From: Synechococcales cyanobacterium bin59.metabat.ball.084
GTDB lineage: Bacteria; Cyanobacteriota; Cyanobacteriia; Cyanobacteriales; Chamaesiphonaceae
Assembly (NCBI GenBank): GCA_013297675.1
Contig: JAAFHZ010000025.1
Coordinates: forward strand, 1 to 42,542
DNA length: 42,542 nucleotides
Direction of reading: 5' to 3'
Shown: piece by piece, positions 1 through 8,832 of the stretch
Layout of the letters: every line of letters starts with the position of its first letter
How positions within the stretch are numbered: position 1 is the first letter of the stretch
Notes under the pieces: generated by a model
Databases searched by the model: none
The model's input: only the letters and a program-made list of their open reading frames with translations
What the model was told of the DNA's origin: nothing
Translations under genes and position numbers: made by a program

Positions 1-260
1 TAATGGTTTTAGGCTTTTGGAGCATGAGTAGCAACCTGGTGATTGATATTTTGCTCAACTTTAACAGGATTCTAAGTTAGACTGATACATTGGTTATTAA
101 ATATAAATTTTGATGCGTTTGCCCTGGTACATTTTCTCTGCTATCGCCATCTGAAAATCGGCTTTATAATGCCGAAATCAGCGAGACAATGGCTCCCCTC
201 GCCCAACCGCAAAACAAACCGGCAAAGCAGAGCTAAGTTCATCCAGCAGAGAACTCAGTC

Positions 261-842
261 ATGGAAATACCCACCCCCGTACTGGTTAGATGTGAAGACT
301 TCAAAACAGTGGCGCTGCCTCCAGCCCACATCCTCGATCCTCGCTGGCCACACGTCGAGCAATTCCTCAACGGCTCAGAAATTGGCCCTGGCTCCCGACG
401 CACCTACCAATTTGCCCTGCGTCGTTTCCTTGACTGGACCAACAAACCTTGGGGCAACATCCAATCTGGCGACGTTATCCTTTACAAGCGCTTTCTAAAC
501 GATGGCGAACTCGCCCCCGCCACCGTTAACCTTTCCCTCAACGCCCTGCGAACCTTTTTTAATTGGTTCGGCAAAACCAACCTCTTTCAAGATGATCGGC
601 ATCCCCTAACAGGTATCCAACTTAATCGACTCGACGAACCACCCGCCAAAGATCTGACCCCTACCGAATTACAGCGTATTTGGTCAACCGTCAACGATCA
701 ACCACAAACTCAACAGCGGGATGTCATCTTACTCTGGATTTTCAATCTAGGCTTACGCTCTAAAGATTATCGATTATCTAATGCAGCCACAACCGATTTT
801 CTCACCAAGGAACGGTTGAAAGCCGATTTGATCGTCGAATAA
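261..842 (+). pseudogene. Truncated tyrosine recombinase (phage integrase family), N-terminal half only
   Basis: The first ~165 residues look like a tyrosine recombinase. A SAM-like N-terminal core-binding domain (GSRRTYQFALRRFLDW, then ATVNLSLNALRTFFNW) covers about residues 40-110. The start of the catalytic domain follows (LTPTELQRIW..., then LLWIFNLGLR), reaching the place where the first catalytic arginine normally sits. Full-length relatives are about 300 residues; this frame has 193. The rest of the catalytic domain, with the HxxR and Tyr motifs, is missing. The last ~20 residues are translated from a CRISPR-like repeat (786-822) rather than integrase sequence. The ATG at 261 has no convincing ribosome binding site. 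It lies inside the transposon end, so it is either decayed cargo or a remnant cut off when the repeat block arrived. It should be inactive as a recombinase. Confidence 0.7.
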
Positions 843-961
843 CGATCGCGCCGCAACCGACTTTCTCACCAAGGAACGGTTCGTTATCCACAGCTTTAAC
901 CTGTTCTGCTGCAACCAATTTTATCTGAAAGGAATGGTTGGAAGGAGTCTGTTCACCAGCT
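786..961 (+). CRISPR. Three degenerate V-K-type CRISPR repeats, the last followed by a tRNA-Thr-matching (homing) guide
   Basis: Repeats lie at 786-822, 850-886 and 908-944, each 37 nt. Repeat 1 ends GGTTGAAAG, the usual 3' end of V-K direct repeats. The 27-nt cores (791-817, 855-881, 913-939) differ by one base between copies 1 and 2 and by six between copies 1 and 3. Two of those six differences compensate each other: the AACCG/CGGTT arms become AACCA/TGGTT, so the stem is kept. Copy 2 ends GGTTCGTTA and copy 3 GGTTGGAAG, so both have drifted. The intervening segments are only 27 and 21 nt (823-849, 887-907), too short for normal spacers. After copy 3, bases 945-961 read GAGTCTGTTCACCAGCT, identical to the tRNA-Thr 3' end except at base 9; similarity stops at 962. 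Not a normal adaptive array: no leader is visible and the spacers are not full length. Confidence 0.75.
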
Positions 962-1087
962 TACTCATATAGATAGCTGAAGTTGTTTTACAAAGGACAG
1001 GACTTTTGTTCAGCAATCCTAGCGAGTGTGCCACAAACTGGATAAATCAAGCTAAAACCTTTACTGAAGAGGTTGATGTCAATATTT

Positions 1088-1174
1088 TCGACGACAATAA
1101 TTTGGCACGATGACACTTAATTTGGCACAACGACAGCAATTAGTCACCGATGACAAATAATTAGTCACTGTACA
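1088..1174 (-). repeat. CAST transposon end: TGTACA terminus plus four TnsB-type binding repeats
   Basis: On the minus strand the end starts TGTACAGTGACTAATT at 1174. Repeat units start at 1168 and 1147 (both GTGACTAATT) and at 1128 and 1108 (both GTGCCAAATT). Each closes with TGTCATC, TGTCGT or TGTCGTC before the next, giving spacings of 21, 19 and 20 bp. A TGTACA terminus followed by tandem GTGAC...TGTC repeats is the layout I know from V-K CAST ends. The units are directly repeated, not inverted. Not verified by alignment. Confidence 0.8.
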
Positions 1175-1185
1175 CCAGGCGAATA

Positions 1186-1231
1186 GAAATAAAGAAGGGT
1201 TTAAGATGATGCACCATCTTAAACCCTTCTT
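1186..1231 (-). terminator. Intrinsic terminator behind tRNA-Thr
   Basis: A perfect 17-bp stem is formed by 1192-1208 and 1215-1231 with a 6-nt loop. On the minus strand it is followed by a T-rich run (complement of 1186-1193). It lies 17 bases beyond the tRNA 3' end and 11 bases before the transposon boundary, so the insertion has left the tRNA transcription unit intact. Confidence 0.8.
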
Positions 1232-1248
1232 AAATTTTACCGAAACAG

Positions 1249-1321
1249 AGCTGGTGGACAGACTCGAACTCCCGACCGGCTGATTACAAATCAGCTGCTC
1301 TACCAACTGAGCTACACCAGC
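1249..1321 (-). tRNA. tRNA-Thr (anticodon TGT)
   Basis: Reading on the minus strand from 1321, the acceptor arm GCTGGTG pairs with CACCAGC, the D-arm is GCTC-AGTTGGTA-GAGC, and the anticodon stem GCTGA/TCAGC carries the loop TTTGTAA, giving anticodon TGT (Thr). The T-loop is TTCGAGT and the discriminator base is T at 1249. CCA is not encoded. The T-stem GGGAG/CTGTC has a G-G mismatch in the middle and one G-T pair, a slight oddity. The GTTCGA of the T-arm supplies a GTT that would serve as the PAM-like motif for the homing guide at 945-961. A terminator follows at 1186-1231. Confidence 0.93.
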
Positions 1322-1337
1322 AAACTTTTATAAATAT

Positions 1338-1343
1338 ATCATA
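1338..1343 (-). promoter_or_regulatory. Probable -10 box of the tRNA-Thr promoter
   Basis: TATGAT on the minus strand lies 17 bases upstream of the tRNA 5' end in an AT-rich stretch, a suitable distance for a short 5' leader. No clear -35 box was found. Confidence 0.35.
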
Positions 1344-1592
1344 CCCTGTTCCGATCGACCACTCCCAAAAAAATAAAATTCTCCAATCGCCCACAGCAAC
1401 ACCGCCGCTTGACCCGAGCCATATCTCTGCCCATGACTCAAACTCTTGCTCCAAAGTTTTAATTGGCCAGAGCAATCATCCAAAGACCGCAGGACGAAGA
1501 TTCACCTGAATCTTAAGATGAAATTTGGCTCTTTACTTGGGATCTGGCTTTCTACTAGAATGAGAGGCTCGATACTTTCACAGGAATCAAGA

Positions 1593-2618: not shown

Positions 2619-3457
2619 CCCAGCTTGCTGTAGTTAATCGCAAAAAATCTCCTAGCCTCTATAAATCTTGGCCTTGGCGGATTACCATTGGCTATTTAAT
2701 AGTGATGCTGCTGTTGCCGATCACCGCTTTGTTGGTGAATGCTGCAACTATTAATCCGCAAGCATTTTGGGCGAAAGCCACTAGCCCGATCGCTCTGGCG
2801 GCTTATGAAGTAACCTTTGTTACGGCCTTGGGTACAGCATTAGTTAACGGCGTATTTGGCACCTTAATTGCTTGGGTTTTGGTTCGCTACGATTTCCCTG
2901 GTAAAAAGATCATTAATGGCGTTATCGATTTACCGTTTGCCTTGCCTACTTCGGTAGCTGGTCTGACTTTAGCGACAATTTATAGTCCCAAAGGTTTAAT
3001 TGGCGGCATGTTGGCTCCCTTGGGAATTAAGATTGCTTTTACTCGTTTGGGTGTAGTGATTGCGATGCTCTTTGTCTCGTTGCCTTTTGTGGTGCGCACT
3101 TTGCAGCCGGTGCTAGAAGAAATGGAAAAAGAAACCGAAGAGGCTGCTTGGAGCTTAGGAGCCACCCCCAGCCAGACTTTTTGGCAGGTGATTTTACCGC
3201 CTTTGATGCCTGCTATCTTAACTGGGGTGACATTGGGTTTTTCCAGATCTGTAGGAGAATATGGTTCGATCGTGATGGTATCGGCGAATCGCCCCTTTCA
3301 GGATTTGATTGCTTCGGTGCTGATTTGGCAGAGCTTGGAGAGCTATGACATTGTGGGGGCAACGGCGATCGGGACGGTGTTGCTGCTGATTTCTTTGGTG
3401 CTGCTGTCTCTGATTAACTGGTTGCAGGCTTGGGGGCAGCGGTATGGTGGCAGGTAA
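2615..3457 (+). CDS. cysT: Sulfate ABC transporter permease subunit CysT
   Basis: This is an inner-membrane permease subunit of the sulfate/thiosulfate ABC importer, normally pairing with CysW and driven by the CysA ATPase. It has 280 residues, the usual length, with about six membrane segments. An EAA-type cytoplasmic loop (EEAAWSLGATPSQTFWQVIL) around residues 170-190 contacts the ATPase, and GFSRSVGEYGSIVMVS follows, typical of CysT. It overlaps the preceding binding-protein gene by four bases. Unusually, nothing follows: the next gene, 11 bases on, is on the opposite strand, so cysW and cysA must be elsewhere or lost. Confidence 0.93.
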   Translation: MTQLAVVNRKKSPSLYKSWPWRITIGYLIVMLLLPITALLVNAATINPQAFWAKATSPIALAAYEVTFVTALGTALVNGVFGTLIAWVLVRYDFPGKKIINGVIDLPFALPTSVAGLTLATIYSPKGLIGGMLAPLGIKIAFTRLGVVIAMLFVSLPFVVRTLQPVLEEMEKETEEAAWSLGATPSQTFWQVILPPLMPAILTGVTLGFSRSVGEYGSIVMVSANRPFQDLIASVLIWQSLESYDIVGATAIGTVLLLISLVLLSLINWLQAWGQRYGGR

Positions 3458-3468
3458 CTGTGACTATG

Positions 3469-5106
3469 TTAATTTTCATGCTCCATCTCAATCTCACAGG
3501 GCAAGCATACTTGAAACTCAGTGCCTTTACCCATTGCACTATTAACCAATAAAAATCCACCATGATTTTTTAAAATTCCCACAGCCGTAGATAGCCCCAA
3601 GCCTGTCCCCCGATCGACTCCCTTAGTAGTAAAAAACGGATCAAAGATTTTTTCCAGATTTTCTGGCGAAATACCAGTGCCGGTATCACGAATAGTTATC
3701 GATACATAAGAGCCATTCCGGGCATCGGGATGTATTTGGCTGGTGTTGGCATCCAGATCTAAATTGTGAGCTGAAATTCTGAGTGTACCGCCGCTGGGCA
3801 TGGCATCCCGAGCATTGACCAATAGATTCATCAATACTTGGTGGACTTGGGTATGGTCAGCCATCACCAACCGCAGAGGTTGATTAACAAAGTCTTCGAT
3901 GACTTCGATCGAACTGGGGAAAGTTTGGCGGGCAATATTTAATACGGCGGTGAGCAGCGGAATAATTTCTACTGATCGATGTTGACTGGCCGTACCCTGG
4001 GCAAAAGAAAGAATTTGTTGCACCAAATCACTGCCTCGGTGAGCACTTTCTTCTAGCATTTCAATCAGCCTGCGACTGCGCCGATCTAGGTTGGGAATCG
4101 CCAATGGTAGCAACTGAGATGCGGCCAAAATTGGCGTAAAAATATTATTCATATCATGGGCAATTCCACTGGCCAAAGTACCCAAAATCTCTAAACGCTG
4201 GGCGCGTAGCATCTGCTGCTCATGTTTTTTCTTGTCCGTAATATCAGTAAAAGAAGCCACTACAGCGTATGGATTAGTTTCACCTTCATGCACCAAAGGC
4301 CGAGAATTGATCGAAATCCAGATCACTGATTCATCTGATTGCACTAGCCCCATCACCACATCTCGATAGGATAAACCAGTGCGAAAAGACTGCATGGAGG
4401 GATGCTCAACGCTCAGAAAAGGTGAGCCGTTTTCATGGATCGATCGCCAGCGCGGAATATAAGAAGAAGTATCTAAAATCTCGGCTACTGTCATCCCTAA
4501 AATACTGGCAGCACTGGGATTACAAGCCAAAATATCCCCAGCAGCATTTTGAAACACAATCCCTGTATCTAGTGCGGCCATGATCGATCGATAGCGATCG
4601 GTGGCTTCCTGTAATGATGCTTCGACTTTGCGACGTTCGGCAATTTCTTGTTCTAGCTGCATGTTAGATAAAGCAATGGCAGCAGTGCGCTCTTCGATGC
4701 GAGTCAAGGTCTGTAACAAAGTGGTTTGAGTCACCACCCCCAAAACGTCGCCAGCTTGGTTGAGTACTGGCAAATAAACCAGTTGATGCCGATACAAAAT
4801 TGCCAGGGCACTCAGGATAGTTTGGTCTTCGTTCAACGTCAAAGTGATCGGTTGGATGGGCAGCACGTCAGCTAAAACGGTTGCTTGCAAATCTTGACCA
4901 ATGGCGACAGCCCGCACCGCATCTCGATCGGTAAAAATTCCTTGAAAAACTCCACCATCCATCACCAGGATGTACTTCCCCTGGGGAGACAAATCCATTT
5001 GTCTAATTGCCGTTAGCAAATTCACCCCACTCGGAAGCTGCAATGGCATTTGGTCAACGGCTGCCATCAAAGGTGGTAAATCGAGTAAGAGGCTTTGATT
5101 AGACAT
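3469..5106 (-). CDS. Sensor histidine kinase with CBS pair and PAS domain
   Basis: 545 residues. Two CBS domains cover residues ~15-135 (FTDRDAVRAVAIG and YLPVLNQAGDVLGVVTQ), which often bind adenine nucleotides. A short coiled stretch (~140-170) is followed by a PAS domain (~171-290) and then the kinase core. The H-box LASGIAHDMNNI has the phospho-accepting His317, and the N-box is NLLVNARDAM (~428-436). DTGTGIS (~474) and GTGLGLSTAVGILKNHGG (~500-517) form the ATP-binding site. There is no membrane segment and no receiver domain, so it is a cytoplasmic sensor. No response regulator gene lies nearby. The H-box (HDMNN) places it with the HisKA kinases of the NtrB-like type. The input signal cannot be read from sequence; the CBS pair suggests energy or nucleotide state. 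Confidence 0.9.
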   Translation of the reverse strand: MSNQSLLLDLPPLMAAVDQMPLQLPSGVNLLTAIRQMDLSPQGKYILVMDGGVFQGIFTDRDAVRAVAIGQDLQATVLADVLPIQPITLTLNEDQTILSALAILYRHQLVYLPVLNQAGDVLGVVTQTTLLQTLTRIEERTAAIALSNMQLEQEIAERRKVEASLQEATDRYRSIMAALDTGIVFQNAAGDILACNPSAASILGMTVAEILDTSSYIPRWRSIHENGSPFLSVEHPSMQSFRTGLSYRDVVMGLVQSDESVIWISINSRPLVHEGETNPYAVVASFTDITDKKKHEQQMLRAQRLEILGTLASGIAHDMNNIFTPILAASQLLPLAIPNLDRRSRRLIEMLEESAHRGSDLVQQILSFAQGTASQHRSVEIIPLLTAVLNIARQTFPSSIEVIEDFVNQPLRLVMADHTQVHQVLMNLLVNARDAMPSGGTLRISAHNLDLDANTSQIHPDARNGSYVSITIRDTGTGISPENLEKIFDPFFTTKGVDRGTGLGLSTAVGILKNHGGFLLVNSAMGKGTEFQVCLPCEIEMEHEN

Positions 5107-5266
5107 GACTTCACCCAGGAAGTAAGGGCACCCGATGTAACAACCTTACCTTATTTAAATGGCGTAAATTTGGATGATCTGCAAAAAAAGCACTAAGGAT
5201 GTCACCTTTTACAACTGGTTTACCCTTATTATTTATAAAGAATATCTTAAATTTTATTGCTAATTT

Positions 5267-8182
5267 ATGACTCAATCTCCTCTGCGATCCATTTCAGCAC
5301 AGCACTCTAGCCCCACTGACTCTCTTCAGCCTTGGCAGACCACTACCGAGTTCATCGCCAGACACATTGGCCCTCAGGCTGTGGATGTACGGAAAATGTT
5401 GGCTGTATTAGGATTTACCAGCTTAGATGAGTTGACGGCTTATGCAGTGCCAACCGATATTCAACTTCAGCAGCCCTTGGCAATTCCGATCGGCACCACC
5501 GAGCAACAGGCGTTGACTAGGTTGAAATCGATCGCCAGCCAGAACCAAGTCTTCCGCTCTTTTATTGGCTTAGGATACTACAACTGCATCACCCCTGCGG
5601 TAATTCAGCGGAATATTCTAGAAAATCCTGGCTGGTACACCCAATACACCCCCTACCAACCAGAAATTTCTCAAGGTCGCCTAGAAGCACTGCTTAATTT
5701 TCAGACCATGGTGATGGATTTAACTGGGATGTCGATCGCCAATGCTTCGCTGCTAGATGAAGGCACCGCCGCCGCTGAAGCGATGACCATGAGCTACGGA
5801 GTACAGACTAAGAAAGGCTTACAGCGCTATTGGGTATCGGCAGACTGCTTTCCCCAAACCATTGATGTCTTGCAAACCCGCGCCCAGCCCTTGGGCATCG
5901 AAATCGTAGTGGGTGACTGGCAAAATATTGATTTTAGCCAGGGCTATTTTGGTATTTTGCTACAATACCCAGCGGCTGATGGGGCGGTACACGACTATCG
6001 ATCGATCATTAAAGCAGCTCAGGAGGCTGGCGCGATTATTACGATGGCGGCGGATTTGTTGAGCTTAACTTTGCTGGCCTCTCCTGGATCTTTGGGTGCC
6101 GATATTGTGGTGGGCAGCAGCCAGAGATTAGGGGTGCCCTTGGGTTACGGTGGCCCTCACGCCGCGTACTTTGCTACCAAAGAAGAGTACAAGCGCCAGC
6201 TACCCGGCAGATTGGTAGGAGTCTCTAAAGACAAACGCGGCAACATGGCCATGCGACTTTCTTTGCAAACTCGTGAACAGCACATTCGCCGCGATAAAGC
6301 TACTAGCAATATTTGTACTGCGCAGGTGTTGCTGGCTATTATGGCTGGGATGTATGGGGTATACCACGGCCCGGCTGGTTTGAAGGCGATCGCGACCCGA
6401 GTGCATAGCCTGACTCAGATTTTGGCTGCTGGTTGCCAGAAGCTGGGCTTACCGGTAGTTCAAGAAAATTTCTTTGATACCGTAACAATTTCTGTCTCTC
6501 ATGCCGAACAGGTGATCAATAAAGCCGTGTCACGGGAAATTAACTTGAGATCGATCGATGCCCAAACCATCGGCATATCTCTAGATGAAACTAGCGCGAA
6601 GCAAGATGTGATTGATCTCTGGGCATTATTGGCAGACAAAGTAGATTTCACTTTTAGCGAAATCGCCGAATCTTTAATACTCAAGGCCAATCCTCATGCA
6701 GATTTGGTCAGAGCCAATGACTATTTAACTCACCCAGTATTTAATAGTTATCATTCCGAAACCGAGCTACTACGCTACATCAATCGCTTGCAATCTAAAG
6801 ATTTATCATTAGCGCAGGCCATGATTCCGCTGGGTTCTTGCACGATGAAGCTGAATGCCACTGCCGAAATGCTGCCGGTAACATGGCCGGAATTCGGCCA
6901 AATTCATCCCTTTGCACCAGTTAACCAAACTCAAGGCTATGCCACCCTCTGTAAGGAATTGGAGCAGTGGCTATCAGAAATTACCGGTTTTGCTGGAATA
7001 TCTTTGCAGCCTAACGCTGGTTCCCAGGGAGAATATGCCGGACTATTGGTAATTCGGGAATATCACCAGCAGCGTAACGACAGTCAGCGAAATATCTGCT
7101 TAATTCCCCAATCTGCCCATGGCACCAATCCAGCCAGCGCAGTGATGGCCGGGATGCGGGTAGTGCCGGTGAAATGTGATGACCAAGGCAATATTGATGT
7201 AGCTGATTTAAAAGCTAAATCGATCGAACACCAAGCTAATTTAGCGGCCTTGATGGTGACATATCCTTCTACTCACGGGGTATTTGAAGCATCGATCCGG
7301 GAAATTTGCCAAGTGATTCACGACCACGGCGGCCAGGTCTATATGGATGGGGCAAATCTGAACGCCCAAGTGGGTCTCTGTCGCCCCGGTGACTTTGGTG
7401 CCGATGTTTGTCACCTGAACTTGCATAAAACTTTCTGTATTCCCCATGGCGGCGGTGGCCCTGGCGTTGGTCCGATCGGGGTGGCGGCTCATTTGGTGCC
7501 CTATTTACCCGGACATCCCTTGGTAAAAGTTGGTGGTGATAAGGCGATCGGGGCAATCTCGGCGGCTCCTTGGGGCAGCAGTAGCATTCTGCCTATTTCT
7601 TGGATGTACATCGAAATGATGGGTGGCCAGGGTCTAAAATTGGCGACTCAGGTAGCAATTTTGAATGCCAACTATATTGCTAAACGCTTAGAAGGTCACT
7701 ATCAAGTCCTCTATACCGGCAATCGGGGCTTGGTTGCTCACGAGTGTATTTTGGACTTGCGGGAGTTTAAGAAAACCGCTGATATCGATGTAGATGATAT
7801 CGCTAAGCGCTTGATTGACTATGGCTTCCATCCACCTACTGTGTCTTGGCCAGTGGCTGGGACGGTGATGGTCGAACCTACTGAAAGTGAGTCTTTGGCG
7901 GAACTCGATCGGTTCTGCGATGCCTTGATTGCTATTCGGCAAGAAATTCAGGCGATCGAAAGTGGCGAGGTGGCTCCAGATAACAATCTGCTGAAAAATG
8001 CTCCTCATACTCTGGCTGATTTGGTAGATGCCAATTGGGATCGTCCTTACGATCGGGAAACCGCTGTTTTCCCGGTGGCTAACCTGAAGAACTTTAAGTT
8101 CTGGCCAACGGTGAACCGCATTGATCAGGCTTACGGCGATCGGAACCTAGTTTGTAGTTGTCCTTCGATGTCTGAGTACTAG
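5267..8182 (+). CDS. gcvP: Glycine dehydrogenase (decarboxylating), P-protein of the glycine cleavage system
   Basis: PLP enzyme that decarboxylates glycine and passes the aminomethyl group to the lipoyl arm of GcvH. In cyanobacteria it acts in photorespiratory glycine breakdown. It has 971 residues, the normal length of the single-chain P-protein. The N-terminal half starts at [11 protein letters not shown]. The C-terminal half contains the PLP-lysine motif [16 protein letters not shown] with Lys721, and the Gly-rich loop after it. [13 protein letters not shown] and AHGTNPASA are further family signatures. The ATG at 5267 lacks a strong ribosome binding site and lies 160 bases from the divergent kinase gene. 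No glycine riboswitch could be seen upstream. gcvT and gcvH are not nearby. A terminator follows at 8276-8314. lipA, needed for the lipoyl partner, is elsewhere in this window. Confidence 0.97.
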
Positions 8183-8217
8183 CAATAAAAATCTGCTTGC
8201 ATATAAACAGAAAAGCT

Positions 8218-8245
8218 AGGTTGTGGGCACTGCCCACCCTACAAC
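8218..8245 (+). repeat. Small hairpin repeat behind gcvP
   Basis: The arms GTTGT (8220-8224) and ACAAC (8241-8245) enclose GGGCA/TGCCC (8225-8229, 8231-8235), with unpaired ACCCT on one side. The first 12 bases, AGGTTGTGGGCA, recur at 40391-40402. Elements of this kind are dispersed in cyanobacterial intergenic regions. A second small echo lies here too: TCGATGTCTGAGT occurs at the end of gcvP and again about 90 bases later. Confidence 0.45.
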
Positions 8246-8275
8246 TACTGTTTCTCGATGTCTGAGTCCTTGTGT

Positions 8276-8314
8276 CCAAAAAATCTCTCCGATATACAGG
8301 GAGAGATTTTTTGG
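8276..8314 (+). terminator. Terminator behind gcvP
   Basis: A perfect 15-bp stem (8276-8290 with 8300-8314) closes a 9-nt loop. The stem has six A-T pairs at its base, giving a T-run on either strand, so it could act in both directions. It is about 95 bases beyond the gcvP stop. Confidence 0.75.
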
Positions 8315-8502
8315 CCTTGAAAGGCAGAAATGCTCCTGTCATCTCACAATTTCGGTCAAATCAGCTTTTGAAGGTGGTGAATATTCTCTGAAGAGGTACA
8401 TCAACAGTTGCACTAAATAGTGGGATGCCAGCAGGTGTGACGTGGTTCGGCTTTGATGACAGATGCTGAGTTATAATGGCGATCTCTTATGTTTTTAGTC
8501 TT

Positions 8503-8832
8503 ATGAGCGCATCTTCTACATATAGGATACTTTTGGAAAACACCTCTGAAGGAAAAGCTTTGGCAACTGTGTTGGAACTACCTGAATGTCGAGTAATGGC
8601 TGATACTATTGATAGTGCTCTGATCGAAGTTCAGCAACAGTTGAGCAGGCGCTTAGCTAAAACCGAAGTTGTTTCGATTCAAGTGCCAAATAATTCAATC
8701 CAGGCTGAGCACTCAACATTTGAGCATCCAATGTTAAAATTCGCGGGGATTTTTAAAGATGACTCTGATTTTGCTATTGTAATGGATAGCATTAAAGAAG
8801 AAAGAGCAATTACAGAAGCGGAAGACCAATGA
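8503..8832 (+). CDS. Putative VapB-like antitoxin
   Basis: About 109 residues from this start. The gene lies directly before, and overlaps by four bases (ATGA), a PIN-domain toxin gene, the usual layout of VapBC modules. The N-terminal part (YRILLENTSEGKALATVLEL) could form a beta-sheet. The C-terminal part (HPMLKFAGIFKDDSDF...) resembles the toxin-wrapping tails I know from cyanobacterial antitoxins of this kind. No ribbon-helix-helix or AbrB domain is obvious. An in-frame ATG at 8476 would add nine residues, but it overlaps a TATAAT sequence (8472-8477) that looks like a -10 box, so the later start is preferred. If that box is real, the pair is transcribed from just upstream, as expected for autoregulation. 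Confidence 0.65.
   Translation: MSASSTYRILLENTSEGKALATVLELPECRVMADTIDSALIEVQQQLSRRLAKTEVVSIQVPNNSIQAEHSTFEHPMLKFAGIFKDDSDFAIVMDSIKEERAITEAEDQ

Follow-up and report, generated by a model that had tools for sequence, protein, structure and literature searches.

A tRNA-Thr-matching anchor in a cyanobacterial contig, very probably the relic of a decayed type V-K CAST

The guide-like segment and its tRNA match

In the cyanobacterial contig stretch analyzed here (the window, 42,542 nucleotides), 17 bases that directly follow a CRISPR-like repeat almost reproduce part of the tRNA-Thr gene next door. This raises the question of whether the segment is the homing guide of a type V-K CAST, as the original prediction had it, and whether it is a working one. 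The features of the match are given below by position in the window.

786-822, plus strand: CRISPR-like repeat 1, 37 nt, ending in GGTTGAAAG
850-881, plus strand: CRISPR-like repeat 2, without the GAAAG end
908-944, plus strand: anchor repeat (R*, repeat 3), 37 nt, ending in GGTTGGAAG
945-961, plus strand: anchor spacer (guide), 16/17 to tRNA-Thr
1248-1321, minus strand: tRNA-Thr(TGT), found by ARAGORN, oriented toward the left end
1249-1265, minus strand: anchor protospacer, located in the tRNA's 3' part and matching 945-961
1267-1269, minus strand: GTT as would-be PAM, with one base (1266) between it and the match

The guide reads GAGTCTGTTCACCAGCT at 945-961 and abuts the 3' end of the 37-nt repeat, and the minus strand from 1265 to 1249 reads GAGTCTGTCCACCAGCT. 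As predicted, the two are identical at 16/17 positions, with the sole difference at position 9, and similarity is lost from base 18 (mismatches at 18, 19 and 20). Excluding the tRNA, the two strands of the window hold 84,872 17-mers, and no other than that at 945 matches the tRNA at 16/17 positions. In the 4.64-Mb assembly the guide, itself included, has 15 sites with three or fewer mismatches, compared with six for a control pattern consisting of the guide read backwards. The tRNA is the only site with one mismatch, a single site on contig C24 has two, and twelve sites have three. The analytic chance of one mismatch or fewer between one fixed start and the 58 17-mers of the tRNA is ~2e-7.

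The repeats were compared with those of V-K arrays. Both hallmarks of V-K repeats, a length of 37 nt and the 3' end TTGAAAG, are present in repeat 1; the end is missing in repeat 2 and reads TTGGAAG in repeat 3. Over 32 nt, identity to repeat 1 is 94% for repeat 2 and 75% for repeat 3. The pairing arms are intact in repeat 1 (CAACCG/CGGTTG) and in repeat 3 (CAACCA/TGGTTG), the latter having changed on both sides with complementarity preserved, and 5/6 bases of the 3' arm are left in repeat 2. Successive repeats begin at distances of 64 and 58 nt, against the usual 70-78 nt in the V-K arrays compared. Repeat 1 agrees with the best V-K repeat at 22/37 positions, and whole-repeat similarity tells little at this level because a non-array stretch reaches 21. 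As such, the expected kinship with V-K repeats is only weakly answered, favored by the length and TTGAAAG end of repeat 1 but not by whole-repeat identity, which stays at or below 22/37. A scan of viral contigs gave no match to the exact repeat end.

Layout and ends in comparison with V-K loci

To compare layouts, we used 37 stretches downstream of Cas12k (NF038191) hits, chosen mostly among long ones. Of these, 28 have a 17-nt anchor that comes after a TTGAAAG-ended repeat and matches, in the inverted orientation also seen in the window, a tRNA directed at the element; nine stretches (L086, L101, L102, L103, L106, L109, L110, L113 and L120) have neither tRNA nor anchor. That V-K elements carry short tRNA-matching anchors thus holds for 28/37 stretches beside Cas12k genes, and the window's element lies on the V-K side of its tRNA, as had been proposed, with the inverted layout of those 28 loci. 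The anchor is identical to its tRNA at 17/17 positions in 15 loci, at 16/17 in 12 and at 15/17 in one, so that a single mismatch is common. The GTN PAM is adjacent to the protospacer in 28/28 anchors, whereas the GTT of the window is one base farther away. The GTTC expected before the tRNA match is in place (minus strand, 1269-1266), its GTT being one base out of register for an adjacent PAM.

The first protospacer base is 91 nt from the left-end terminus in the window, compared with 42-72 nt in 21 loci (mean 56.3, s.d. 7.0), a count that omits seven of the 28 anchor loci (six in which no terminus was found, plus L087, whose sole candidate is 218 nt away) and that includes six distances for which the terminus was picked by eye among several candidates. 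A strict first pattern for the terminus matched few loci, and a looser pattern was used instead. Excerpts of PMC9938897 place the left end of V-K CASTs 46-82 nt from the PAM, with one exception of 147, and the published V-K architecture in excerpts of PMC9938897 and PMC11406308 consists of the same parts. Saito et al. 2021 and Hsieh and Peters 2021 are cited for such guides in excerpts of PMC9938897, PMC11406308, PMC10293859 and PMC8649781.

Between the anchor and the tRNA, the following features were located.

1085-1174, minus strand: left end of V-K type, carrying TnsB-type boxes and finishing with the terminus TGTACA (1169-1174), z 15.0
1175-1179, no strand: 5-bp flank CCAGG, which also flanks, on the other strand, the end on contig C37 (L005 263-267)
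1184-1239, no strand: near-palindrome of 56 nt in the interval that separates the left end from the tRNA

Over its terminal 80 nt, the left end gave shuffle z values of 15.0, 14.9 and 14.5 to three known V-K left ends among the 23 V-K ends compared (21 left and two right ends). Contig C37 begins inside a second V-K-like end (L005 1-262). Compared with two flank bases included, this end has its best z, 13.4, to the right end beside tnsB in G076, followed by a left end at 11.3 and the other right end at 9.2. From these scores it is probably a right end, its type being uncertain because a left end outscores the second right end. CCAGG flanks both the left end of the window and the end on C37, on contigs that are not joined; a 5-bp coincidence is expected about once in 1000, and equal 5-bp flanks were present in 0/2 V-K elements compared by eye. 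The C37 end would thereby belong to the element of the window. We found no contigs overlapping the start of C37 or that of C15, a contig described below, and both are left unjoined for this reason. In the genome of L037 (cyanobacterial MAG GL140_1), the neighbourhood of tRNA-Thr did not show the C37 flank; the flank gene sits on another contig there, so synteny speaks neither for nor against the pairing of the two ends. Near its beginning, C37 carries two adjoining 516-aa genes (L005 1937-3487 and 3723-5273), ATPase-like by eye, with ~85% DNA identity over roughly 1 kb.

The fold of 1175-1247 on the minus strand has -25.9 kcal/mol (z -5.77), and the 56-nt near-palindrome is possibly the terminator of the tRNA. 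As an idea only, it could have arisen after insertion by a fold-back duplication of 28 nt, without which the spacing of 91 nt would be 63, a common value. In the corresponding place (5658-5696), the hairpin of L037 is a different one. When window positions 780-1182 were searched against plasmids, one match was obtained, a stretch of 51 bases in the Crinalium epipsammum plasmid NC_019734.1 (L191, 3668-3718) that is 86% identical to the left-end terminus of the window. The 10.7 kb examined around it carry 13 features, of which none has a CAST-gene annotation.

The search for relatives covered 40 genomes, the window's own one included. At the best tRNA-Thr(TGT) locus of one same-genus and nine same-family genomes, there was neither a left-end-like terminus nor a second copy of the guide; two of these ten loci (L151 and L159) stop about 150-170 nt past the tRNA. 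The refuting case of the same 17-nt match in a transposon-free relative thus did not turn up among the relatives examined. The guide agrees with the tRNA itself at 16/17 positions in the same-genus genome and at no more than 14/17 in the same-family genomes. Beside the locus, L037 shares ~90% identity with the window; past the tRNA its sequence resembles that of the same-genus genome, and its tRNA-Thr locus likewise carries no element.

Machinery and linked cargo

V-K machinery had been looked for upstream of the array, and none was found: no Cas12k or TnsB in the assembly and no tracrRNA in the stretches searched. The Cas12k profile NF038191 gave no hits at E 0.001 in the assembly, which is 99.59% complete with 220 contigs and 4.64 Mb. 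The same profile matches 44/386 genomes of the phylum, 36 of them above the cut-off, and 2/14 control genomes, both below it. The Mu-transpos_C domain of TnsB (PF09299) had no hits in the assembly and none in the 14 controls; it matches 9/9 genomes tried, eight of them Cas12k-bearing and one not. For tracrRNA we built two profiles, each from half of 30 loci, and each finds 14/15 held-out loci (28/30 together). In window 1-1500, C15, the first 3000 nt of C37 and C53, these profiles gave nothing better than E 3.9. On the same stretches, tblastn with 30 Cas12k ORFs reached E 0.024 at best, and tblastn with two TnsB ORFs gave no match at E 1. A comparison of the ORFs common to six upstream stretches did not yield TnsB. 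The guidance machinery seems to have been lost, although its absence from these searches is not proof because 220 contigs leave gaps.

Upstream of the repeats, the window holds the following features.

1-126, no strand: last 126 nt of a multicopy insertion sequence, within which the contig breaks off; the end of contig C53 has the identical sequence
127-136, no strand: 10-bp target duplication GTACATTTTC of the insertion sequence, with its partner near the end of contig C15
261-842, plus strand: truncated tyrosine recombinase (N-terminal part), Pfam Phage_int_SAM_4 at E 5.3e-10

The recombinase fragment is at the spacing where intact elements hold the tracrRNA and the 3' end of cas12k. Homologues with less than 60% identity occur in 64 plasmid records, for which the listed genera are cyanobacterial, and one homologous plasmid CDS encodes 343 aa. 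In a first set of loci, no homologue was found beyond the fragment's own copies and one weak hit at E 0.57.

The same kind of insertion sequence terminus is located 124-126 nt from the contig end in six contigs, the window's included. An insertion sequence with 10-bp target duplications interrupts the assembly at the ends of contigs C1, C15, C53, C86, C122 and C196. Because the 10-bp duplication GTACATTTTC is present on both, the sequence upstream of the window probably continues on C15. C53 and C1, as well as C122 and C86, likewise pair by their 10-bp flanks, C122 differing inside the terminus; no flank partner was found for C196. On C53, a gene that is caspase-like by eye (L121 8790-9484) runs into a copy of the same insertion sequence.

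The genes of C15 include a methyltransferase, MADS-like genes, GmrSD_N, CD-NTase, E1-E2, JAB and HNH-SAVED. A CBASS-like set (CD-NTase, E1-E2, JAB and an HNH-SAVED effector) occupies 9963-14393 of L178 on this contig, and MADS-like methylation/restriction genes lie beside it at 3103-8520. We take the set of CD-NTase, E1-E2, JAB and HNH-SAVED to be a type II CBASS. The defence-rich C15 may, in whole or in part, be cargo of the element, linked to the window through insertion sequence flanks at contig ends only.

Origin of the anchor and comparison with known systems

Taken all together, positions 908-961 are very probably the anchor repeat-spacer of a decayed type V-K CAST that homed to tRNA-Thr(TGT). 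The idea of a V-K CAST homing guide holds up as a statement of origin, given the layout, the strand, the left end, the second end with an equal flank and the absence from the relatives examined. It is not supported for a working guide, as the assembly gave no match to Cas12k or TnsB and the stretches searched gave none to tracrRNA, the PAM is out of register, the spacing is long and the repeats are degraded. The element is therefore regarded as a decayed, probably non-working member, on account of its PAM register, its spacing and the machinery that was not found. The match, its geometry, the ends, the equal flank, the insertion sequence flanks and the negative searches for cas12k, tnsB and tracrRNA are observations; from them we infer a past RNA-guided insertion, an order of decay, the membership of the C37 end and present immobility.

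In the mechanism we propose, a crRNA would have directed Cas12k to the tRNA gene, in its 3' part next to the T-arm GTT; TnsB, TnsC and TniQ would have integrated the element downstream, the left end turned toward the tRNA. The cas12k-tracrRNA segment may then have been replaced by, or deleted against, cargo, of which the truncated tyrosine recombinase would be a part, and the array would have lost parts. In the simplest account, the loss of one base at the boundary of repeat and anchor would have put the PAM out of register. An insertion sequence would have landed in the cargo, so that the presumed remnant consists of the ends, a fossil address and a cargo rich in defence genes on the linked contig C15.

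An intact, working V-K CAST whose machinery falls into assembly gaps would be compatible with the way C37 stops, 262 nt inside its end, given that the first tnsB ORF starts 255 and 522 nt from the end in two other elements, and with the outcome that no contig was found to overlap C37 or C15 at its start. We nevertheless regard it as improbable, because a broken recombinase occupies the place where the tracrRNA precedes the array in other loci, the linked C15 appears as cargo without a good Cas12k or tracrRNA match, and both the PAM register and the repeats are degraded. The 3' ends of tRNA genes are the usual targets of integrases, and the attL and attR sites that result are direct repeats. 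With a typical target and a recombinase fragment (261-842) nearby, the match could be the attachment-site duplication of an integrase-type element that entered the tRNA 3' end. The two copies in the window are inverted, however, one of them directly follows a CRISPR-like repeat, and a V-K type end lies between them, which makes this origin very improbable. Chance similarity beside unrelated repeats, for which the mismatch, the PAM out of register and the weak whole-repeat similarity might be cited, is hardly credible for the best 17-mer of the window and the sole one-mismatch site of the assembly, in the place and orientation of 28 known anchors.

A decayed V-K CAST therefore remains our preferred explanation. 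In a rather unlikely variant of this picture, the locus would be a non-autonomous island built on a V-K CAST, with both ends and the anchor kept around defence cargo after loss of the RNA-guided machinery; it could still be moved, or its anchor used, if a complete V-K CAST provided Cas12k, tracrRNA and TnsB/TnsC/TniQ in trans. The locus matters in that a tRNA-homing anchor could be recognized from raw sequence where cas12k, tracrRNA and tnsB were not found; decayed CASTs might therefore be sought by their ends together with an anchor instead of by their genes. In addition, the relic is tied to a defence-gene island and bears on what stays once such transposons stop moving.

Compared with type V-K CASTs such as ShCAST and AnCAST, the window shares the tRNA directed toward the left end, the inverted 17-nt anchor after a 37-nt repeat and the TGTACA-type left end. 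It differs from them in that the assembly matched neither Cas12k nor TnsB and the searched stretches did not match tracrRNA, in a PAM that is off by one base, in its 91-nt spacing and in the truncated recombinase at the place of the tracrRNA. Excerpts of PMC9938897 mention twelve degenerated Cas12k proteins. While cas12k is recognizable in V-K CASTs with a degenerate cas12k and none was recognized here, these elements resemble the window's in being decayed with other parts retained. Restriction-modification and CBASS are listed as cargo of Tn7-like transposons in excerpts of PMC8649781, whose Table 1 gives CBASS cargo for Proteobacteria, Actinobacteria and Firmicutes and not for Cyanobacteria. 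Although the island of the window is tied in only via insertion sequence flanks at contig ends, it is like the defence islands of Tn7-like transposons in its restriction-modification and CBASS genes.
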